DNA from: Pontibacter sp. FD36
GTDB taxonomy: Bacteria; Bacteroidota; Bacteroidia; Cytophagales; Hymenobacteraceae
NCBI RefSeq assembly: GCF_015686655.1
Contig: NZ_JADPMP010000009.1
Coordinates: 124,001 to 188,000 of the forward strand
Length of the DNA stretch: 64,000 bases
Direction of reading: 5' to 3'
A model generated the notes under the pieces. That model worked only from the letters and a program-made list of their open reading frames with translations. It was not told the DNA's origin and did not search any database. The position numbers and the translations under genes were made by a program. Below, piece by piece: positions 7,957-30,773 of this stretch (its first letter is position 1; each line of letters starts with the position of its first letter).

Positions 7957-8946
7957 ATGACAAAATCTTTAACAGGCATTATATTCCCCCTTGCAAAGAA
8001 TACCTTTAGTGGGTTTCTGGACAACGGTTCTCTTATGTTGGCTGCGGCACTGGCCTTCAATGCCATTTTCTCAATCCCTCCCCTGCTGGTCATCATCATA
8101 CAGGCCGCCGGGTACTTCCTTGGCGAGAAGGCCGTTTCAGGTGAACTTTCCAGCCAGATTTCAGGGGCGATAGGTCCCAGTGCAGCTGATTCCATTGAGA
8201 CCATCGTACAGAATGCGGCTTTGAGCGAAGGAGGCGGTATAGCGTTCTGGATAGGTATAGGCACGCTGATCTTCGCATCCACTACGTTTTTTGCTACGTT
8301 GCAGGAGTCGCTGAACAGGGTGTGGAACGTGAAACCGAAGCCGACAAACGGCATCGTGAAGATGCTGAAGGTGCGCCTGTTCTCGTTTGGTATCGTGCTG
8401 AGCATTGCCTTGCTGATGCTGGTGTCGCTAATGCTTAGTGCAGTGATTTCTATCCTCAGCGAATATCTCCGCGAGATCTTCGACAGCTACCTGCAGTTTA
8501 TCTCGCCTGATGTGCTGTATTTCCTCATCAAGGCCATGGACTTTATTCTGTCGGTTGCCATTATTACGGCCCTGTTTTCACTTATTTTCAAGTACCTGCC
8601 CGATGCCTTTATCAAATGGAAAGATGTGTGGGTGGGCGCTTTGATCACGGCACTGCTGTTCACTATTGGCAAATTCCTGATCAGCTGGTTCATCAGCACC
8701 AGCGACCCGGGCTCAGCCTATGGGGCTGCCGGCTCCATTATCGTAATTTTAGTATGGATCTACTACTCGTCGCTGATCGTGCTGTTCGGGGCGGAGTTCA
8801 CTCAGCAGTATGCCGCTGAGTTTGGCCAGGAGATACGGCCCAAGGAGCATGCGGTGCTGTTCAGAGAGCAGGAGATCACCAATAACCCGCACGACATATC
8901 CAGCGGCAGACCAAGGCCGGAAGGCAGGTTCAACAAAGCCAGCTGA
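7957..8946 (+). CDS. YihY/BrkB family inner membrane protein
   Basis: A 329-residue polytopic protein with about six hydrophobic segments (near residues 25-50, 95-115, 145-170, 185-210, 225-245 and 260-285). It has the family features: an early ALAFNAIFSIPPLL segment, GTLIFASTTFFATLQESLNRVW near the middle, and the SAYGAAGSIIVILVWIYYSS block before the last helix. A hydrophilic tail follows. Family function is unproven despite the old 'ribonuclease BN' label. It shares a bidirectional terminator with rlmN. Confidence 0.9.
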   Translation: MTKSLTGIIFPLAKNTFSGFLDNGSLMLAAALAFNAIFSIPPLLVIIIQAAGYFLGEKAVSGELSSQISGAIGPSAADSIETIVQNAALSEGGGIAFWIGIGTLIFASTTFFATLQESLNRVWNVKPKPTNGIVKMLKVRLFSFGIVLSIALLMLVSLMLSAVISILSEYLREIFDSYLQFISPDVLYFLIKAMDFILSVAIITALFSLIFKYLPDAFIKWKDVWVGALITALLFTIGKFLISWFISTSDPGSAYGAAGSIIVILVWIYYSSLIVLFGAEFTQQYAAEFGQEIRPKEHAVLFREQEITNNPHDISSGRPRPEGRFNKAS

Positions 8947-22508: not shown

Positions 22509-23750
22509 ATGAGCACGCTATCCATCACCTCCAGCCAGCAGGCTATCGAAACCGAAGAAAAATACGGCGCCCACAACTACCACCCGCTGCCGGTGGTATT
22601 GAACAAAGGCGAAGGCGTATACCTGTGGGACGTGGAGGGCAAACGCTATTTTGACTTCCTGTCGGCCTACAGCGCCGTAAACCAGGGCCACTGCCATCCG
22701 CGCATCATCAATGCCCTGATCGAGCAAGCCCAGCAACTCACACTAACTTCCCGTGCCTTCTACAACGACAAGCTAGGTATAGCCGAGAAGTACATTTGCG
22801 AGCTGTTCGGTTACGACAAATCGCTTTACATGAACTCCGGTGCCGAGGCCGTGGAGACGGCCATCAAATTGGCCCGCAAATGGGCTTACTTGAAGAAGGG
22901 AATCGCCTCTCACAACGCCGAGATCATCGTAGTAGAGCGCAACTTCCACGGTCGCACGACAGGCATCATCTCCTTCTCCACTGACCCGGATTCTACCAAA
23001 GGCTTCGGCCCATACATGCCCGGCTTCAAAGTGATTCCTTACAACGACTTGGAGGCGCTGGAAACGGCCCTGAAAGAGAACCCGAACGTCTGCGGTTTCC
23101 TGGTAGAGCCGATTCAGGGCGAAGCAGGCGTAGTAGTACCGCAGGACGGATATATGGCTAAGGCACATGCGCTTTGCAAAGAGTACAACGTGCTGTTGAT
23201 GGCTGATGAGATCCAGACAGGTATAGCGCGTACCGGTAAGCTGCTCGCCAGCTATTACGATGATGTGAAAGCCGACATCCTGATCCTGGGCAAAGCCCTT
23301 TCAGGTGGCGTGCTACCGGTGTCTTGTGTGCTGGCCAACGACGACATCATGCTGTGCATTCAGCCAGGTGAGCACGGGTCTACCTTCGGCGGCAATCCGG
23401 TGGCAGCGGCAGTTGCCATTGCCGCTTTGGAGGTGATTAAAGAAGAGAACTTAATAGAGAATGCCTACAAGCTGGGTGAAGTGTTCCGTGACCGCATGAA
23501 CCAACTCAAGGCCAAGCGCCCGGAAGTGGTTACGCTGGTAAGAGGTCGCGGCCTGCTCAACGCCATCGTGATCGAGCCTTCGGCTGATGGCCGCACCGCC
23601 TGGGATGTGTGCGTGGAGTTGAAAGAGAACGGCCTGCTTGCCAAGCCAACCCACGGCGATATTATCCGCTTTGCACCGCCTTTGGTGATGACGGAGGAGC
23701 AGCTGCACGAATGCTGCGACATCATTGAAAAAGTAATCATGAACTTTTAA
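22509..23750 (+). CDS. rocD: Ornithine aminotransferase
   Basis: A 413-residue class III PLP aminotransferase that transfers the delta-amino group of ornithine to 2-oxoglutarate, giving glutamate semialdehyde. The PLP lysine is K262 in ILGKALSGG. Other blocks are [52 protein letters not shown] and [12 protein letters not shown]. Acetylornithine aminotransferase is the close alternative, but the N-terminal [14 protein letters not shown] and the NAIVIEPS ending region favour RocD. A terminator follows. Confidence 0.93.
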
Positions 23751-23972: not shown

Positions 23973-24022
23973 AATTTTCATTTTAGATATACTTGTAAAC
24001 GCTCCATTTACACAACTATCAC

Positions 24023-25183
24023 ATGAAAACGATTTTCCCCTCGGCTATCATCGAGCAGTCAACGGAATGCTATCAAAGCAGAATAACTGTACGTTCGAAG
24101 ATCATTTACTTAAGCGCATTAGCTTTTTTATTTTTAGCGCTTTTGTGCCTACCCTTCATCTATATTGATCTATCTATCCAGGCTAAAGGCATACTGCAGA
24201 GCTCGCTCGAACGAAATGAAGTTTTTGTACCTGTACAGGGGAGAGTTTATAACATCAGATATAAAGAGAATGACAAGGTGTCTAAAGGAGATGTCATTGC
24301 TGAAATCGTATCTGAACAACTGAATTTGGAGTTACAAGGATATCAGCAAAGGATTGGCTTATTAAACACCTTTCTTTCTGATCTGAGAACTTTAGGGAAT
24401 AAAAATATAACAACTACACCCCCTTCTTTCAAGTCTGATGTTTATGCTGCTTCTTATTATGAATACTTTTCTGCTTATGAAAGCCTGAAAGCAGTGCTTG
24501 ATAAAGCAACCCGAGATTATGAAAGAAACGCGCTATTATACGAAGCAAAAGCAATTGCCTTTGTAGAGTATGACGAGTCTAAATTGAAGTATGAGCAAGC
24601 CCAGTCTAATTTAGAACTTCATATTAAAAAACAGAAAGCGAAATGGAAACAGGAAGCTAACTCCTATGCTAACGAACTAAATCAACTTGAAAATAAAGTA
24701 AAGTCTGTTACTGAGCAGAAAACTCATTACAAGATTTTAGCAGGCGTGAACGGCACCCTGCTAAATGTAAAAAATATTAAGGAGGGAGATTTTGTATTTC
24801 CGAACCAGAAAATAGCCGAAATATCTCCTGATTCTACGCTATTAGCAGTAGCTTATATCTCACCCAAAGATGTTGGGTTCATACAACCTGGTCAGCAGGT
24901 ATCTCTTCAAGTAGACGCCTTCAATTACAATGATTGGGGGTTTGCAAAAGGCAAAGTAGCGGAAATAGCGGATGACCTTTCTCTTATTTCCGAACAGCAG
25001 GCAGCCTTTAGGGTTATCTGCTCTCTCGACCAAACGCACCTTAAGTTGAAAAACGGGTATACTGGTGAGCTGAGAAAAGGCATGACATTCAATGGTCGGT
25101 TCTTAGTCGCGCGTCGCAGCCTGTTTCAGCTCCTTTATGACAAAGTAGATGACTGGATGAATCCTGCCATTACTACTATTTAA
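24023..25183 (+). CDS. HlyD-type membrane fusion protein for peptide export
   Basis: A 386-residue periplasmic adaptor. One membrane helix lies at about 28-51 (IIYLSALAFLFLALLCLPFI), followed by a lipoyl-like half motif with VPVQGRVYNIRYKENDKVSK, a coiled-coil hairpin at about 100-235, the second lipoyl half (GVNGTLLNVKNIKEGDFV) and a beta-barrel region with PGQQVSLQVDAF. It would link the C39 ABC transporter to an outer membrane channel of TolC type, which is not coded here. The gene starts 25 bases before the transporter gene and is clearly AT-richer than rocD. Confidence 0.92.
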   Translation: MKTIFPSAIIEQSTECYQSRITVRSKIIYLSALAFLFLALLCLPFIYIDLSIQAKGILQSSLERNEVFVPVQGRVYNIRYKENDKVSKGDVIAEIVSEQLNLELQGYQQRIGLLNTFLSDLRTLGNKNITTTPPSFKSDVYAASYYEYFSAYESLKAVLDKATRDYERNALLYEAKAIAFVEYDESKLKYEQAQSNLELHIKKQKAKWKQEANSYANELNQLENKVKSVTEQKTHYKILAGVNGTLLNVKNIKEGDFVFPNQKIAEISPDSTLLAVAYISPKDVGFIQPGQQVSLQVDAFNYNDWGFAKGKVAEIADDLSLISEQQAAFRVICSLDQTHLKLKNGYTGELRKGMTFNGRFLVARRSLFQLLYDKVDDWMNPAITTI

Positions 25184-25207
25184 GCTATTCCCTAACAAAC
25201 TACACGT

Positions 25208-27361
25208 ATGAGTATCAAAGTAAAGCAGCGTGATATAACAGATTGCGGGGCTGCCTGTTTGGCGTCTATTGCCAGTCACTACAAACTAAAGCTTCCTGTT
25301 TCAAAGATCCGGCAGATGGCCTCTACCGATCAGAAGGGTACCAACGTACTTGGCTTAATTGAAGCGGCTGAGAAGATGGGATTTTCCGCTAAGGGCGTTA
25401 GAGGAGAATTTGACAGCTTATTCAAAATTCCTACACCTACCATTGCACACGTCATCATTAAGGGTGTTCTCCATCACTACGTCGTTATTTACAAAGCGAC
25501 AAAGAAGCACATCCACATCATGGACCCTGCGGATGGCCGGATGCAAAAGATGCCTCATGAAGAGTTTAAAGCCTTGTGGAGTGGCGTGCTGGTCCTATTG
25601 ATGCCCAATGATGACTTTAAAGCACTCAATCAGACTGTTTCTGTCTACCAGCGTTTCTGGTTTCTAATGAAGCCTCACAAATCTGTGATGTTTCAGGCTC
25701 TTTTTGGAGCAATTATTTACACTGTGCTTGGTTTATCGACGGCCATTTACGTGCAGAAGATAGTAGACCATGTTTTTGCAGATGGCAACAAGAACCTGCT
25801 CAATCTGATGAGCGTCATTATGCTGGCACTACTAGTGTTCCAGGTATTGATTGGCGTATACAAGACCCTGTTTGTTCTGAAAACAGGTCAGAAAATAGAT
25901 GCACGCCTCATCCTTGGCTACTACAAACACTTGCTTACGCTCCCGCAGCAATTCTTTGATACGATGCGAGTAGGTGAAATTATCAGCAGAATAAACGACG
26001 CAGTTAAAATCAGGGCTTTCATTAACGATGTATCCATTAATCTAATGGTTAATGTGTTCATCGTACTGTTCGCTTTTGCCTTGATGTTTACTTATTACTG
26101 GAAGCTGGCTCTGGTCATTCTCCTGATTATCCCACTCTATACGCTGGTATATTTTATTACCAATAAGCTGAACCGAAAAGTAGAACGGGAACTGATGGAA
26201 GACTCAGCCGAGCTTGAGTCACAATTGGTAGAGTCTATTACGGCAGCCGGAACTATCAAGCGATTTGGCATGGAAGACCATGCCAACATTAAATCCGAGA
26301 CGCGCTTTATCAAGCTTTTGGGCTCAGTCTATAAATCAGGCGTTAACAACATCTTCACTGGCACTACCTCCGAAACTATTTCCAGAGTATTCACCATCGT
26401 ACTGTTATGGGTCGGCGCTGGTTATGTTTTGGAAAACCAGATAACACCCGGTGAACTCATGTCATTCTATGCCGTCATAGGTTATTTTACCGGCCCTGTG
26501 GGTACGCTAATCGGCATGAACAAAACAATACAAAATGCCATGATTGCGGCAGACCGTTTATTTGAAATTATGGACCTGGAGGTAGAAAGTAATGAAAATA
26601 AATTTGAGCTGAAGAAAGAGCTTATTGGCAACATATACCTCAAGGATGTACACTTCCGCTATGGATCCCGCAAGAATGTTTTCGAGGGCTTAAGCCTTAA
26701 AATCCCGAAAGGCAAAATAACAGGCATTATCGGGGAAAGCGGCTCTGGTAAATCTACACTTATCTCTATCCTGCAGAACCTATACCCGCTTCAATCGGGA
26801 AGTGTGCATATTGGTGACTATGACCTAAAGTACATTGAGAACAGAAGTCTGAGGCAACTGGTGACAGTAGTACCTCAAAGAGTAGACTTGTTTGCCGGCA
26901 ACGTAATTGAAAACATTGCCCTTGGAGATTACCAACCAGACGTACAGCGCATTGTCGGCATTTGTGGGCAGTTAGGTATGATGGATTTTATTGAAGGCTT
27001 ACCAAATGGTTTTGGCACTTACCTCGGCGAAAATGGCGCTTCTTTATCGGGCGGCCAGAAACAACGCATCGCTATAGCCAGAGCTTTATATAAAGACCCT
27101 GAAGTACTGATAATGGATGAGGCCACCTCCTCGCTTGACCCTAAATCAGAAGAATTTGTTCAAATGACTATCCGCAAACTGGCAGAAGCAGGGAAGACCG
27201 TGATATTTATTACCCACCGACTTGCTGCTGTGAAGGATTTTGACCTGCTGTTTGTATTGGAAAACGGCAAACTCATAGAACAGGGTACACACGCGGAGCT
27301 TCTAACAAAACGTGAGCGCTATTTTGAGATGATAAACAAACAACTTTTGGTTCTAAATTAA
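25208..27361 (+). CDS. Peptidase-containing ABC transporter (C39, double-glycine leader cleavage)
   Basis: A 717-residue exporter that cuts leader peptides after Gly-Gly and pumps out the mature peptide. The C39 domain (about 1-130) has the catalytic Cys13 in DITDCGAACLASI, His at about residue 90 in GVLHHYVVIY, and Asp in IMDPADG. The membrane domain spans about 160-440. The ATPase has Walker A GESGSGKST, signature LSGGQKQR and Walker B VLIMDEATSSLD. With the upstream adaptor it forms a type I/PCAT export machine. The obvious cargo is the pair of GG-leader peptides coded just downstream. Confidence 0.95.
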   Translation: MSIKVKQRDITDCGAACLASIASHYKLKLPVSKIRQMASTDQKGTNVLGLIEAAEKMGFSAKGVRGEFDSLFKIPTPTIAHVIIKGVLHHYVVIYKATKKHIHIMDPADGRMQKMPHEEFKALWSGVLVLLMPNDDFKALNQTVSVYQRFWFLMKPHKSVMFQALFGAIIYTVLGLSTAIYVQKIVDHVFADGNKNLLNLMSVIMLALLVFQVLIGVYKTLFVLKTGQKIDARLILGYYKHLLTLPQQFFDTMRVGEIISRINDAVKIRAFINDVSINLMVNVFIVLFAFALMFTYYWKLALVILLIIPLYTLVYFITNKLNRKVERELMEDSAELESQLVESITAAGTIKRFGMEDHANIKSETRFIKLLGSVYKSGVNNIFTGTTSETISRVFTIVLLWVGAGYVLENQITPGELMSFYAVIGYFTGPVGTLIGMNKTIQNAMIAADRLFEIMDLEVESNENKFELKKELIGNIYLKDVHFRYGSRKNVFEGLSLKIPKGKITGIIGESGSGKSTLISILQNLYPLQSGSVHIGDYDLKYIENRSLRQLVTVVPQRVDLFAGNVIENIALGDYQPDVQRIVGICGQLGMMDFIEGLPNGFGTYLGENGASLSGGQKQRIAIARALYKDPEVLIMDEATSSLDPKSEEFVQMTIRKLAEAGKTVIFITHRLAAVKDFDLLFVLENGKLIEQGTHAELLTKRERYFEMINKQLLVLN

Positions 27362-27374
27362 ATGTGGAAATGAT

Positions 27375-27710
27375 ATGAATTTTAGAAAGTACATCGAAAG
27401 GATTAAGTATCTGGATGAATTAATCCGGAAAGAGAGAACAGGTACGCCAGAGGAGCTAGCTAGTAGGCTTGGCGTCAGCAGGGCACAACTGTATAATATA
27501 ATTGATGAACTGAAGACCGAAGGCTTAGCAATTAACTATACCAGAAAGCGAAACACATTCTACTATACCTCTAATCAAAAGCTGGAAATAGCATTCTCTT
27601 TGAAGGTTGTTTCGGAGGATGAAAATATTAAAGTTTTTGGAGGAAAAATTTATTCCAATCCAATTTTTCTAGATGGAAGAAAAGTAGCTTTATATCAGTT
27701 AACCGGTTAA
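27375..27710 (+). CDS. HTH regulator of the peptide operon
   Basis: A 111-residue protein with an N-terminal winged-helix-like HTH of the HTH_11 type (TPEELASRLGVSRAQLYNII, about residues 23-42, then a KTEGLAINYTRKRNTFYY wing). The C-terminal half (GGKIYSNPIFLDGRK) has no recognised ligand-binding domain. It starts 14 bases after the transporter stop and precedes the peptide genes, so it is likely a local regulator of peptide expression. The operator is unknown; the palindrome at 23941-23972 is a candidate. Confidence 0.8.
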   Translation: MNFRKYIERIKYLDELIRKERTGTPEELASRLGVSRAQLYNIIDELKTEGLAINYTRKRNTFYYTSNQKLEIAFSLKVVSEDENIKVFGGKIYSNPIFLDGRKVALYQLTG

Positions 27711-27770
27711 GCAAAAGGTAATGTCAGCCGCCTGTAAGTGTGGACAGAAGCATAAAGATTTCAAAAAAAT

Positions 27771-27959
27771 ATGGAAAATTTAAACGTAGTTCAACTAAAA
27801 GTAGAAGAATTAGAAAATATCAACGGGGGTATTTTCCCGATAGTTATTGCAGGTGTAGTTATATCAGCTAAGACTGCAGGTTGGATTGCAGCAGGCACTG
27901 CCGCAGCAGGGCTCTTTGGAGCAGGAGTTTATGTTGGATATCAAGAAGCTGCAAAATAA
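27771..27959 (+). CDS. Double-glycine-leader bacteriocin-like peptide
   Basis: A 62-residue precursor. The leader has the classic pattern LKVEELENINGG with Gly-Gly at about residues 19-20. The mature part is a Gly/Ala-rich hydrophobic helix, with GWIAAGTAAAGLFGAGVYVG containing several small-xxx-small steps, and ends in YQEAAK. This is the layout of class IIb-type (lactobin/cerein-like) peptides of Bacteroidota. It is probably cleaved and exported by the neighbouring C39 transporter. Antimicrobial activity is inferred, not shown. Confidence 0.85.
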   Translation: MENLNVVQLKVEELENINGGIFPIVIAGVVISAKTAGWIAAGTAAAGLFGAGVYVGYQEAAK

Positions 27960-27964
27960 GAACT

Positions 27965-28156
27965 ATGAAAGCCCTACAATTAGATCTTGCTACATATAAT
28001 GTAGCTGAAAACACCTACGATGAAAATATCGAAATTGAAGGTGGAAACCCATTTATTATTCCATTTCTTGCAATAGGTGGAGCTGCAGCGGCAGGCTTAG
28101 CCATTTATGAAGCAGGAAAAGCTACAGGAGAATTTATTTACCATATTACACGCTAA
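27965..28156 (+). CDS. Second double-glycine-leader peptide with GKATGE motif
   Basis: A 63-residue precursor from the ATG at 27965, five bases after the previous stop. The leader is acidic and ends NIEIEGG. The mature part starts NPFIIPFLAIGGAAAAGLAI and ends YEAGKATGEFIYHITR. The C-terminal GKxxGExxYxxT pattern recurs in three further small genes at 28186, 30359 and 30663. With the 27771 peptide it may act as a two-peptide bacteriocin. The GG leader makes it a likely C39 substrate. Confidence 0.82.
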   Translation: MKALQLDLATYNVAENTYDENIEIEGGNPFIIPFLAIGGAAAAGLAIYEAGKATGEFIYHITR

Positions 28157-28185
28157 GTTTATCAACTCACCTTAATTAATGAATC

Positions 28186-28338
28186 ATGGAATACTTTAAT
28201 AAAGAAACGCTGGATAGATGCTTGCAAATGTTGCTAGCTACTTGGTACACTAAAGTTCTCCTGATTACCTTATCTGCCTATTTTATATTCAGATTTGGCA
28301 AGAGCATAGGTGAGTTCTTATACTATATTACACACTAG
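28186..28338 (+). CDS. Leaderless 50-residue membrane peptide with GKSIGE motif
   Basis: A 50-residue frame, MEYFNKETLDRCLQMLLATW at the start, with one hydrophobic segment (VLLITLSAYFIFRF) and the C-terminus GKSIGEFLYYITH. It has no GG leader. It sits 29 bases after the second leader peptide in the same orientation and shares its C-terminal motif. It could be an immunity peptide that mimics the exported one, or an intracellular variant; both are inference. A hairpin terminator follows at 28418. Confidence 0.7.
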   Translation: MEYFNKETLDRCLQMLLATWYTKVLLITLSAYFIFRFGKSIGEFLYYITH

Positions 28339-28417: not shown

Positions 28418-28474
28418 AAGAACCTCCTGTTTTAGGGATATAGTCAATGTATTACCTAAAGCCAGGAGGTTCTT
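28418..28474 (+). terminator. Rho-independent terminator of the peptide operon
   Basis: A 12-bp perfect outer stem AAGAACCTCCTG / CAGGAGGTTCTT, extended by further pairing across TTTAGG/CCTAAA, and TTTTGTTTT after it. It is preceded at 28381 by a six-codon ATG frame in a context like that before the 28186 gene, perhaps a deletion remnant. Confidence 0.8.
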
Positions 28475-28572
28475 TTGTTTTCCACTTCTAAAAAGGCGCT
28501 TATCATTGTAAGTACCCCTAAACCAGCACAGTTCAAAAGTAGACTTTTCTAAAATCTGAGCTCCTCCCAATT

Positions 28573-29454
28573 TTAGGACTGGCCAAAAATAGAGAATTCG
28601 GGCTTCACTATGTTCTTTTTCACCCACGCTTCCGGCTTTATGTCACCCAATGAACTGTGAGGCCGGAAACCGTTATACTCCTCTCGCCAAGCTTCTATCT
28701 TCTGCTTTGCATCCTCCAGAGAAAGGAACCAGTTGGCGTTCAGACACTCGTTCCTGAAGCTACCTTTGAAGGACTCGATAAAGGCGTTATCCGTGGGTTT
28801 CCCGGGTCTGGGGAAGTCAAACGTCACCTTGTTATCATACGCCCATTTATCCAGCGCCTTGGATATAAACTCACTCCCGTGGTCTACCTGTATACGCTTG
28901 GGTACAGCATTGTTTTCCTGTTTTATCTTTTCCAAAGCAGCGACCACGTCTTCTCCCCTCAGGGACTGTCCCACCAGGATGCCCGGGCACTGTCGGCTAT
29001 AATTATCCACTACAGTTAAGCAGCGGAACTTCCTGCCGTCAAAGAGCTGGTCGGCTACAAAATCCATGCTCCAACACTCCTGATTGCTGGAGAGTTCAGG
29101 CTGCTCCAGGCTATGAGCGGCGGCTTTGTTTCTTCGCGGGCGCTTTGTCCTCAGTTTCAGCCCCTCCTCCCTATAGAGGCGATGCACGCGCTTATGGTTG
29201 TTCCGCCAACCCGCCCGCCGCAGCAGGATAAAGATACGCCAGAAGCCGTAGCGAACCCTCACCTGAGCTATCTCCCGCATCCGCTTCCTGATCACGGAGC
29301 TGTCCCTGGCTTTGGAGCGATAGTACCAGCCTGTACGGTGAAACCTCACCACCTTACAAGCCCTGGTGATGGAAACGCGACAAACATTTGTCAAGCCTGA
29401 AGCCAGCCCTTTTAGCCGGGCTGGCTTCAAAGCTTTTTTCAGACCCACAGACAT
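28573..29454 (-). CDS. IS3-family transposase OrfB (DDE integrase core)
   Basis: A 293-residue catalytic subunit. The N-terminal part has an HTH_21-like region (VRYGFWRIFILLRRAGWRNN). The catalytic triad is present: D in CWSMDFVADQLFDGR, D in IQVDHGSEFIS, and E in NAFIESFKGSFRNEC. The C-terminal YNGFRPHSSLGDIKPEAW is typical. In the IS it would normally be made by frameshifting from OrfA; the OrfA frame is broken here, so the element may no longer transpose on its own. Confidence 0.9.
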   Translation of the reverse strand: MSVGLKKALKPARLKGLASGLTNVCRVSITRACKVVRFHRTGWYYRSKARDSSVIRKRMREIAQVRVRYGFWRIFILLRRAGWRNNHKRVHRLYREEGLKLRTKRPRRNKAAAHSLEQPELSSNQECWSMDFVADQLFDGRKFRCLTVVDNYSRQCPGILVGQSLRGEDVVAALEKIKQENNAVPKRIQVDHGSEFISKALDKWAYDNKVTFDFPRPGKPTDNAFIESFKGSFRNECLNANWFLSLEDAKQKIEAWREEYNGFRPHSSLGDIKPEAWVKKNIVKPEFSIFGQS

Positions 29455-29719
29455 GTCTCAGCATCGGGTCCACGTCCTGCAGCATTTGTTTGTCCAGGCC
29501 CGAGGTCTGCCACCAGCTGTTTTAACTGCCGGTTCTCCTCCTCCAGCTGCCGGAGCTTTCTTAATTCCAACACTCCCAGACCACCGTATTTTTCTTCCAG
29601 TTATAGAAGGTGGCCTCTGAGATGCCCATCTTGCGGCACACCTCCTCTACCTTAACTCCCGTCTCTACTTGCTTGATGGCGAAGATAATCTGCACCTCGG
29701 TGAACTTCGATTTCTTCAT
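29455..29719 (-). pseudogene. IS3-family OrfA, disrupted by frameshifts
   Basis: From the ATG at 29719 the frame reads MKKSKFTEVQIIFAIKQVE and an HTH (VCRKMGISEATFYNWKK), then loses its frame in a run of A near 29589-29593 and stops at 29561-29563. The rest of the protein (YGGLGVLELRKLRQLEEENR) is in another frame, and one extra C near 29500 would restore the first frame (LDKQMLQDV). These are compensating single-base indels, so OrfA is inactive unless they are sequencing errors. Confidence 0.75.
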
Positions 29720-29797
29720 GGCAATTCGTTTTTTAACTATACGACAATTGCTCGTCTCCTCTACTTTACAGCAGTCCGGTTTTTATGGGGGAGGTCA

Positions 29798-30082: not shown

Positions 30083-30346
30083 ATGGCCCAACCAGAACAA
30101 AGCAAACCCACCATAATCTTTTCCGGTGACTTTCATCGGGCAGCGGTCATTAAAAACATGCTTGAGAACCACGGCATTTATGTGTTTATACAAAATGAGC
30201 ACATGGGCAGTATTGCGCCTTTTCAAGTAGCTTCTGGCGGCTTTAATCCGGTGCGGCTCATTATCTCCGGACATGATGAGGAAGAGGCGCAGCGCCTTCT
30301 GGATGGATTTGATGCTGCTGCTTTTGACAACCAAGACGAGAACTAA
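30083..30346 (+). CDS. DUF2007 family putative signal-transducing protein
   Basis: An 87-residue cytoplasmic protein. The pattern TIIFSGDFHRAAVIKNMLEN, then a small beta-sheet (IYVFIQNEHMGS) and VRLIISGHDEEEAQRLL matches DUF2007, a small ferredoxin-like fold. Function unknown. It is directly followed, 12 bases later, by a leaderless membrane peptide gene and may be co-transcribed with the peptide pairs. Confidence 0.85.
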   Translation: MAQPEQSKPTIIFSGDFHRAAVIKNMLENHGIYVFIQNEHMGSIAPFQVASGGFNPVRLIISGHDEEEAQRLLDGFDAAAFDNQDEN

Positions 30347-30358
30347 CACATCAGACTT

Positions 30359-30472
30359 ATGAAAAAATCAGCAAGAATAACCTCTATCCTAATTGCACTT
30401 GTTATAGTTTTTATAGCGGGAGAACATGTGGGAAGCAGCCTTGGCGAGCTTGTTTACAACTTAACTCACTAG
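30359..30472 (+). CDS. Leaderless 37-residue membrane peptide with GSSLGE motif (type A)
   Basis: A 37-codon frame: a basic N-terminus MKKSARITS, one hydrophobic helix (ILIALVIVFIAG), then EHVGSSLGELVYNLTH and TAG. The C-terminus shares GxSxGExxYxxTH with the genes at 27965, 28186 and 30663. The reading frame continues after the TAG into a second hydrophobic segment. Missing from ordinary gene prediction because of its size. Exported, immunity or toxin roles cannot be separated from sequence alone. Confidence 0.65.
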   Translation: MKKSARITSILIALVIVFIAGEHVGSSLGELVYNLTH

Positions 30473-30586
30473 TCTTTTATCAAAACAGGAAGGCTATACC
30501 TGACACCCTTAACGCTTTCTATCATCTGCGCTCTGGGCTTCTTACTTGGAGTTGCTGCAGGAATCGTGTTATATTTAAAGAGCTAA
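30473..30586 (+). pseudogene. Hydrophobic type-B segment without start codon
   Basis: Directly after the TAG of the 30359 peptide, in the same frame, 37 codons run to a TAA. They encode a basic-polar stretch and a glycine-zipper helix (ICALGFLLGVAAGIVLYLKS) similar to the type-B peptide at 30820 (GFLIGLGIGAYVALK). No ATG, GTG or TTG start is present before the helix. It may be a decayed copy, start at CTG, or be read through the stop. Confidence 0.45.
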
Positions 30587-30662: not shown

Positions 30663-30773
30663 ATGCAAAAGAAGACTAGAATCATAAAAGCACTCTTAAT
30701 CACTGCTTCGGCTGTTGCTATCTTTACCTTCGGCAAAAGCATGGGCGAAGCGCTGTATTATTTCACCAACTAA
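30663..30773 (+). CDS. Leaderless 36-residue membrane peptide with GKSMGE motif (type A)
   Basis: A 36-codon frame: basic start MQKKTRIIKA, one hydrophobic helix (LLITASAVAIFTF) and the C-terminus GKSMGEALYYFTN. It is the fourth member of the family in this region and is followed after 46 bases by a glycine-zipper peptide gene (type B), repeating the A-B order seen at 30359-30586. No leader peptide is present. Confidence 0.65.
   Translation: MQKKTRIIKALLITASAVAIFTFGKSMGEALYYFTN

Follow-up and report, generated by a model that had tools for sequence, protein, structure and literature searches.

A stretch of 64,000 nucleotides from Pontibacter sp. FD36 (contig NZ_JADPMP010000009.1, positions 124,001 to 188,000; called the window below, with positions counted from its first letter) contains a six-gene operon that appears to bring together three functions. 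Two small peptides, P1 and P2, would form a bacteriocin exported by a C39-peptidase transporter; a third peptide, P3, would protect the producer by mimicking P2; and a small winged-helix regulator seems to carry, behind its DNA-binding part, a site that the transporter could read. We give this explanation as a whole a probability of roughly 0.5, and its parts differ in strength. As a bacteriocin-like system the operon belongs to a kind that is already known; what would be new is the mimicry by P3 and the export-tagged regulator.

All six genes lie on the + strand, separated from the HlyD-family adaptor to P3 by gaps of 24, 13, 60, 5 and 29 nucleotides (Table 1). The initial annotation had described this layout of one orientation and short gaps, and it is confirmed; the Pfam and NCBIfam models that name the genes were applied with their own thresholds as family cut-offs, with weaker matches considered down to E ≤ 1. 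The exporter combines a C39 peptidase domain, the membrane domain of an ATP-binding cassette (ABC) transporter and an ATPase in one chain, as a C39 peptidase exporter should, scores 520.9 bits against TIGR01193, slightly below the cut-off of 523.85, and is the sole match in a genome-wide C39 search. The operon had been called complete, which is somewhat too strong in that no TolC-type gene was found among the open reading frames (ORFs) of the operon. The absence of a modification enzyme stood up among the flanking ORFs scanned with Pfam, which were 10 of the 15 ORFs of at least 140 residues between 12 and 42 kb (eight named, two unmatched). The same scan found a UPF0004/radical-SAM/TRAM protein about 7 kb from the operon on the opposite strand, which we take to be of the RNA- or ribosome-modifying type. 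PADLOC gave no match for the peptides and only a general helix-turn-helix (HTH) likeness for the regulator.

P1 and P2 are encoded by adjacent small genes with double-glycine (GG) leaders, and both mature peptides contain a GxxxG motif, as expected of class IIb bacteriocins. The motif is GVYVG in P1, with both glycines invariant across five sequences, and GKATG in P2, again with both invariant. P1 exceeds the cut-off of a bacteriocin family model (TIGR03949); P2, P3 and two further peptides described below, P4 and P5, match no Pfam or NCBIfam model above cut-off, and P2 and P3 none at E ≤ 1. A search for homologous gene order, proposed in the initial annotation as a check, found P1-P2-P3 in four other records (L070 from genome G052, L097 from G239, L099 from G139, and L093, a Bacteroidales metagenome-assembled genome (MAG), JAITHZ010000215.1), which makes five records in two orders; in L099 an HTH gene precedes P1. 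In these four modules P1 is 58-60% identical to that of the window. Among 204 genomes of the family, P1 occurs at E < 1e-30 in four, the ones that hold the module, each of which also has P3; weak matches in G236 and G240, frames of 1429 and 143 residues, were excluded from this count. Between G052 and G239 the nonsynonymous and synonymous rates (dN/dS) are 0.01/0.19 for P1, 0.05/0.33 for P2 and 0.03/0.31 for P3. With dN well below dS for all three and the recurrence in four other records, the arrangement is not a product of chance, and P1 to P5 are small proteins kept by selection.

The gene content, the GG leaders, the GxxxG motifs and the recurring order make it probable that P1 and P2 are an exported bacteriocin-like pair, as had been proposed. 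Synthesized with GG leaders, both would be trimmed and exported by the C39/HlyD machine, and packing of their GxxxG helices would let them act jointly in the inner membranes of relatives. Two points weigh against this: P2 matches no bacteriocin family, and expression, secretion and activity are read from sequence. Could the pair be a cell-cell signal instead of a toxin? GG peptides serve as pheromones too, and the operon has a regulator; such a role nevertheless seems unlikely for two long, hydrophobic, glycine-rich peptides, one of which (P1) fits the class IIb model, in an operon that has no sensor kinase.

The evidence on P3 begins with its C-terminus, FGKSIGEFLYYITH, which it has in common with P2, ending AGKATGEFIYHITR. 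When all six frames of the window are scanned for this type of ending, four ORFs appear, namely P2, P3, P4 and P5. In each of four modules (window, G052, G139 and L093) the local score of P2 with P3 is reached by 0 of 2000 shuffles. P3 was also tried as a match of P1, and there the score is ordinary, being reached by 514-1871 of 2000 shuffles in the four modules. In all five records P3 starts 6-29 nucleotides behind P2, the position of a class IIb immunity gene. In a Flavobacterium MAG (L095:998-1633), an unrelated leaderless hydrophobic ORF of 69 residues comes after two GG peptides, with HlyD one ORF further, and because an unrelated leaderless ORF occupies the site there, the place behind the peptide pair looks like an immunity slot. 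The 69-residue ORF is possibly an alternative immunity type at the same position. A different arrangement is seen on the Phocaeicola salanitronis plasmid pBACSA02 (L197:1411-2687), where two short GG peptides precede a CAAX-protease-type gene, HlyD, C39 and TolC; CAAX proteases are among the immunity proteins of class IIb systems.

These comparisons incline us, by a little, to read P3 as an immunity peptide that mimics the toxin. Lacking a leader, it would remain in the membrane of the producer, repeat the C-terminal helix of P2, and protect by occupying the place of P2 either beside P1 or at the receptor of P2. Its physical properties count partly against this. The best 19-residue hydropathy of P3, which has no GG, is 1.49, and the usual membrane cut-off is about 1.6; because of this maximum a membrane span is likely, not certain. 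Its charge is -1 before and +1 behind the hydrophobic stretch, so that the charges do not fix an orientation; for P4 and P5 the values are +3 and -1. The leaderless peptide is present as initially annotated, and its P2-like C-terminus and stand-alone relatives fit immunity better than cargo.

Those relatives include P4 and P5, which lie behind an insertion element of IS3 type and had been overlooked: the operon genes are placed correctly within 24023-28338, and the system extends further. The score of P4 with P2 is reached by 7 of 2000 shuffles and that of P5 by 0 of 2000. P4 was rejected as a mimic of P1 (324 of 2000 shuffles, not significant). A profile of P3-type endings matches 40 of the 204 family genomes (E ≤ 0.001) and 17 of 50 genomes of the genus (E ≤ 0.01). 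In a sample of 395 genomes from the phylum it matches four, the genome itself and three weak matches, one of them from the same family; a wide spread in the phylum was therefore rejected, with the Bacteroidales MAG L093 as the clear exception. The patchiness of the family is uncertain because short profiles miss members. The 40 genomes include two (G058 and G125) with longer ORFs that have a Sec-like start and are not P3-sized, and one (G033) whose match is a 39-residue frame without ATG. In the two longer ORFs (L115:8011-8337 in G125, L116:7973-8302 in G058) the GxxxGEFIYNISH stretch is internal and the end is FSKFDI.

C39 matches occur in 67 of the 204 family genomes. Among the 40 with the P3-type motif, 17 have a C39 match and 23 do not, and because relatives occur in genomes without one, P3 is unlikely to be C39 cargo. 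This bears on the idea that P3 is itself secreted along with P1 and P2, as a third bacteriocin or signal that lacks a leader. Leaderless bacteriocins exist, and P3 shares the operon and the ending of P2; even so, P3 has no leader for the sole exporter and its position is taken by another leaderless protein in the Flavobacterium MAG, and together with the relatives in genomes without C39 this leaves the idea very improbable.

Stand-alone copies fall into groups with common neighbour genes, presumably aspartoacylase-like (8 loci, once 3.5 kb off), metK-like (5 loci) and SbcC-like (4 loci), and others. Four genomes of the genus (G003, G008, G009 and G016) have the aminotransferase and DUF2007 genes about 120-620 bp apart with no operon between them, and DUF2007 is followed there by P4-/P5-type peptides and then the ALAD (hemB) gene. 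In the window, 6.3 kb of operon and IS3-type element separate the aminotransferase (22509-23750) from the DUF2007 gene (30083-30346). Either the operon arrived beside P4 and P5, or it was lost in the other genomes and left them behind; either may have happened. P4, P5 and the stand-alone peptides elsewhere would be orphan immunity peptides of the P3 family. Against this, copies at conserved chromosomal sites may be housekeeping peptides, and one can imagine that P3, P4 and P5 are older resident membrane peptides and that P2 arose later, when a copy of one of them was joined to a GG leader; the bacteriocin would then attack by pushing the resident peptide away from its partner. Relatives at several conserved sites without bacteriocin genes, the P4/P5 copies beside hemB in four genomes with no operon there, and purifying selection all agree with such an origin. 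We consider it improbable, since the family is patchy in genus and family and almost missing from the rest of the phylum, and since tandem divergent copies occur, a pattern nearer to immunity than to housekeeping.

Tandems of two or three divergent stand-alone peptides are found at L056:7959-8407, L060:7808-8109 and L068:8044-8347, in each of which the AGxxVGxSIGELIYN type comes first and the P3-like type follows. In the window, an ORF without ATG (30473-30586) lies in frame behind the stop of P4 (SFIKTGRLYLTPLTLS...); its start resembles P5-type peptides of G003 and G009 (KKGNLYLTP), and it is perhaps a decayed third copy.

The initial annotation gave the operon its own regulator, a role supported by the linkage of this HTH family with C39/GG-peptide loci, and overlooked a GG site within that regulator. 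The site, Gly89-Gly90 of 111 residues, is not an N-terminal leader, and because it lies behind the winged helix the protein is not classed as an ordinary GG precursor. When the protein is aligned with its counterparts in G005, G139 and Flavobacterium resistens, both glycines are invariant, and the stretch before them resembles the P2 leader (DENIKVFGG, DENIEIEGG). An AlphaFold model built on a two-row alignment gives a winged helix with a mean predicted local distance difference test (pLDDT) score of 68, with residues 83-89 below 50. A fold search with this model found no match at E ≤ 0.001, the best being MarR, WYL-type and other winged-helix folds, and five other family members match no Pfam or NCBIfam model above cut-off.

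Homologues of the regulator occur in 35 of the 395 phylum genomes. The set compared here holds 42, from 37 loci, read with flanks of at most 8 kb, and five records of plasmids or phages added later. The 37 comprise the window, G005, G039 and four more, G139 and F. resistens, which were found through their cargo, and the rest from the search of 395 genomes; G621, G290, G298, G249, G523 and G609, with frames of 337-399 residues, and H20 were left out of the 42. A GG or AG pair stands at the same place in 26 of the 42. In the first set of sites it follows the TG of the HTH by 67 residues in 17 of 24 and by 62-66 residues in the others; L186, with AG 54 residues behind this anchor, falls outside 62-67 and was scored as lacking the site. 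The tails behind the site are variable and 11-35 residues long.

Is this position a C39 leader site? A weight matrix was built from the leaders of 42 cargo peptides, with no HTH protein in the training, and compared with a background of 3639 GG/AG sites in long ORFs. Mean scores are -17.9 for the background, 4.8 for the 24 HTH sites and 23.1 for the training leaders, scored on themselves. In 19 of the 24 the HTH site is equalled by at most 0.2% of the background, and in 21 by less than 1% (a rank test gives p 7e-17, which is not a true probability because the HTH sites are homologous). The site of the window has leader-like residues, outscoring all but 0.03% of the background and remaining below the cargo leaders. 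The HTH sites are leader-like, and they are not typical leaders because the training leaders average 23.1 against their 4.8.

The site also goes together with C39 exporters. Under a strict criterion set after the loci had been seen (a C39 gene that is 50% or more identical, or, within 1.2 kb downstream on the same strand, a GG-leader ORF), with GG, C39 and cargo labels entered by hand for this and the tree test, 25 of 26 homologues with the site are linked to C39 or cargo, as against 3 of 16 without it (p 3e-7). Only L168 of the 26 departs from this, on a contig that runs for just 43 nucleotides past the gene; of the three site-less homologues so linked, L181 has a TAG before ELKKVSGG and L189 diverges behind the DNA-binding part. 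The first GG peptide lies 34-127 nucleotides behind the HTH gene in 15 of 24 loci and 261-386 nucleotides behind in 5, with none found in 4, and 16 of the 24 have at least two GG peptides downstream. In the plasmid and phage records the site is present in 2 of 2 beside C39 and in 0 of 3 without. Aureibacter tunicatorum pAT7 (WP_309943463.1) has an HTH protein with MYHINGG and a 17-residue tail in a locus with TolC-HlyD-C39 genes and four GG-type ORFs, and Persicobacter sp. JZB09 has one with ISLINGG and a tail, adjoining C39; pAT7 was first reached through its C39 gene, and JZB09 stood in the same C39 list. The GG and, in the stretch read, C39 are both missing from Persicobacter psychrovividus pPP9, Bacteroides uniformis pBuniCL06T06-1 and phage clone MT836100, the last two records being near-copies.

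That the C39 exporter takes the winged-helix protein as a ligand or substrate seems to us, from these patterns, an even bet. Several results pull the other way. The sites of L185 (2.3% of background), L172 (5.4%) and L177 (16%) are poorly leader-like, and all HTH sites score far below cargo leaders (for L177-L179 the GGG/AGG register was chosen by hand before scoring). When any C39 gene in the stretch read counts, the link weakens: such a gene accompanies 20 of the 26 homologues that have the site and 5 of the 16 that lack it (one-sided Fisher p 0.0045). It is also clade-structured: a tree of the DNA-binding part (69 columns, many forks unresolved) requires 7 switches of the GG state, of which well-supported branches carry at least 4, and yields only 4 independent pairs, on average 1.9 in which C39/cargo changes in the same direction, 0 in the opposite and 2.1 without difference, too few for a significant test. 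Clade structure alone may be the source of the link. Finally, the tails change quickly, with dN at or above dS in two close pairs, one of them on very few sites.

Perhaps one branch of the regulator family inherited the GG as a structural turn and happens to sit with C39 exporters, as the clade structure and the powerless independent-pairs test would allow. This we regard as doubtful: in 21 of 24 homologues the residues before the site beat 99% of the 3639 background sites, residues 83-89 of the model fall below a pLDDT of 50, homologues without C39 mostly end before the site, and AG replaces GG in several.

Alternatively, the winged helix might be an oversized leader, its DNA binding lost or secondary, and the variable tail the exported product. 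Folded domains before a GG site are known as oversized leaders in NHLP and Nif11 proteins. The sites with their tails of 11-35 residues suit such a role, and in 4 of 5 close pairs the tail is less conserved than the rest (for example, 6 of 15 against 80 of 87 residues identical), which would also fit a released product. It is difficult to see, on that account, why the recognition-helix region is well conserved, including in homologues without site or C39, why the tails of the window and G005 agree in 11 of 16 residues despite unrelated cargo, or why one homologue ends right behind the GG; we judge it rather unlikely. The last of these, L167:7864-8271, ends directly after FGG with two GG peptides downstream, a natural tailless regulator. 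At L181:7958-8320 an HTH gene with an in-frame TAG just upstream of the GG site adjoins a C39 exporter.

How would a site read by the exporter relate to control of the cargo? The winged-helix protein would control the cargo genes directly downstream, and the C39 domain would dock its leader-like stretch, either binding or cutting it. When P1/P2 precursors are scarce the regulator would be bound or cut, and when the exporter is filled with cargo it would be free, or the reverse; exporter load would thus set the activity of the regulator, which may be an activator or a repressor. The export-tagged regulator could be a new kind if cleavage occurs. More tentatively, the bacteriocin-like loci of the phylum may hold a class of small DNA-binding regulators with a built-in C39 site behind the DNA-binding domain, by which the exporter senses its load and sets cargo transcription, with the tail possibly released as a signal; in this operon, P3-type immunity, a leaderless copy of the membrane helix of the toxin, would stand beside it.

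A comparison with G005 fits a constant exporter and regulator. Its HlyD, C39 and HTH proteins are 74%, 90% and 84% identical to those of the window and lie at a different site with two unrelated GG peptides, and DNA likeness runs from the start of HlyD to 27749, stopping before P1; exporter and regulator are constant and the cargo is exchanged. The G005 peptides (L071:8350-8562 and 8641-8841) have a common 25-residue tail with 23 residues identical (DWYFSEDTMR.AGELNLT.KQRWEY). The operon lies in an AT-rich stretch (G+C 40.9% in a 4.3-kb segment at 24000, lower in 7 of 597), and the IS3-type element contains an rve/rve_3 transposase at 28573-29454. P1 and P3 have no match in the plasmid collection, and pattern scans of viral contigs, based on the alignments of P1 and of the HTH, yielded no relative that was confirmed, so mobile spread of the system was rejected. 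As an operator, the 12-bp palindrome TTAACCGGTTAA is only a weak candidate: its exact form occurs at the window locus and G005 alone among the loci compared, and the window has 16 perfect 12-bp palindromes, about the chance number.

Table 1. Features of the operon and its surroundings, in window positions
Feature	Position	Strand	Support or remark
HlyD-family adaptor	24023-25183	+	PF13437 65.2 bits (cut-off 22.2), PF16576 49.2 bits
C39-peptidase ABC exporter	25208-27361	+	PF03412 129.6 bits (cut-off 22), PF00664 164.5, PF00005 105
Small winged-helix (HTH) protein, putative regulator	27375-27710	+	PF08279 29.4 bits (cut-off 25)
Codons of Gly89-Gly90, GG-leader-like site	27639-27644	+	21-residue tail behind site
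Palindrome TTAACCGGTTAA, 12 bp, at HTH stop, weak operator candidate	27699-27710		also behind G005 HTH (L071:8283)
P1, GG-leader peptide, lactobin A/cerein 7B type	27771-27959, GG 27825-27830	+	TIGR03949 31.6 (cut-off 21.5)
P2, GG-leader peptide, mature end AGKATGEFIYHITR	27965-28156, GG 28040-28045	+	sequence; counterparts in four further modules
P3, hydrophobic peptide with no leader and a P2-like end, immunity candidate	28186-28338	+	P2-P3 shuffle test
Inverted repeat then T-rich stretch, likely operon terminator	28418-28474		25-nt arms, 76% complementary, 7-nt loop
IS3-type element between operon and P4/P5, outside the system	28520-29783	-	24-nt inverted ends, 71% complementary
P4, stand-alone leaderless P3-family peptide	30359-30472	+	same ending; dN<dS in 10/10 pairs
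P5, stand-alone leaderless P3-family peptide	30663-30773	+	same ending; dN<dS in 10/10 pairs

Among known systems, the class IIb bacteriocins lactobin A and cerein 7B resemble the pair through P1, which exceeds their model cut-off (TIGR03949), and differ in that the system of the window is found in Bacteroidota, with HlyD, and with a P2 that matches no model. For the regulator, a parallel is FlgM, in which the state of export sets transcription. FlgM shares export-set transcription and the NHLP and Nif11 proteins a domain before the GG, in each case with other machines and folds. Searches of open-licence PubMed Central papers for a DNA-binding protein with a double-glycine site showed none, which does not prove its absence.

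The bacteroidetocins of Bacteroidetes are likewise GG peptides with a C39 exporter and without a lanthipeptide-type enzyme; according to the available part of that report they differ in being single, class IIa-like peptides with cysteines and in having a thiol oxidoreductase gene, and the authors found no immunity protein (PMC6671954). Immunity to exported GG peptides in Bacteroidota is thus little known, as far as that text goes (PMC6671954). If P3 acts as proposed, immunity by mimicry would be readable from sequence, and stand-alone copies would predict resistant strains. Class IIb immunity proteins are described, in the part of the review available, as membrane-associated and of unknown modes of action, and CbnZ has 42 residues and one span; P3 is similarly small and, as read here, would be membrane-associated, whereas a likeness between immunity protein and bacteriocin is not described for them there (PMC8538875). 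Closer is gallocin A of Streptococcus gallolyticus, in which two GG-leader peptides are accompanied by a third small gene, gip, reported to be necessary and sufficient for immunity (PMC10100652), and P3 fits by position and size. In the accessible portion of that paper, the modelled likeness of GIP to both gallocin peptides leads the authors to propose interference with their pairing; that likeness is one of modelled structure (disulfide-linked hairpins), whereas that of P3 is in sequence, at the C-terminal end of one peptide, and gallocin A has a Gram-positive host and other regulation (PMC10100652).

If the exporter peptidase does read the regulator, the transporter itself would couple the making of toxin to the capacity for exporting it, and proposals of the HetC type would gain a concrete type of substrate. 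For HetC, a C39 exporter of Nostoc, the authors propose that an N-terminal remnant of the substrate is left in the cell, where it acts on a regulator, and that the remainder is exported (PMC10986499). The coupling of C39 export to a regulator is the likeness; the difference, so far as the available sections describe it, is that HetC has no identified substrate and hetC no neighbouring GG gene, whereas in the window the regulator itself carries the site (PMC10986499).

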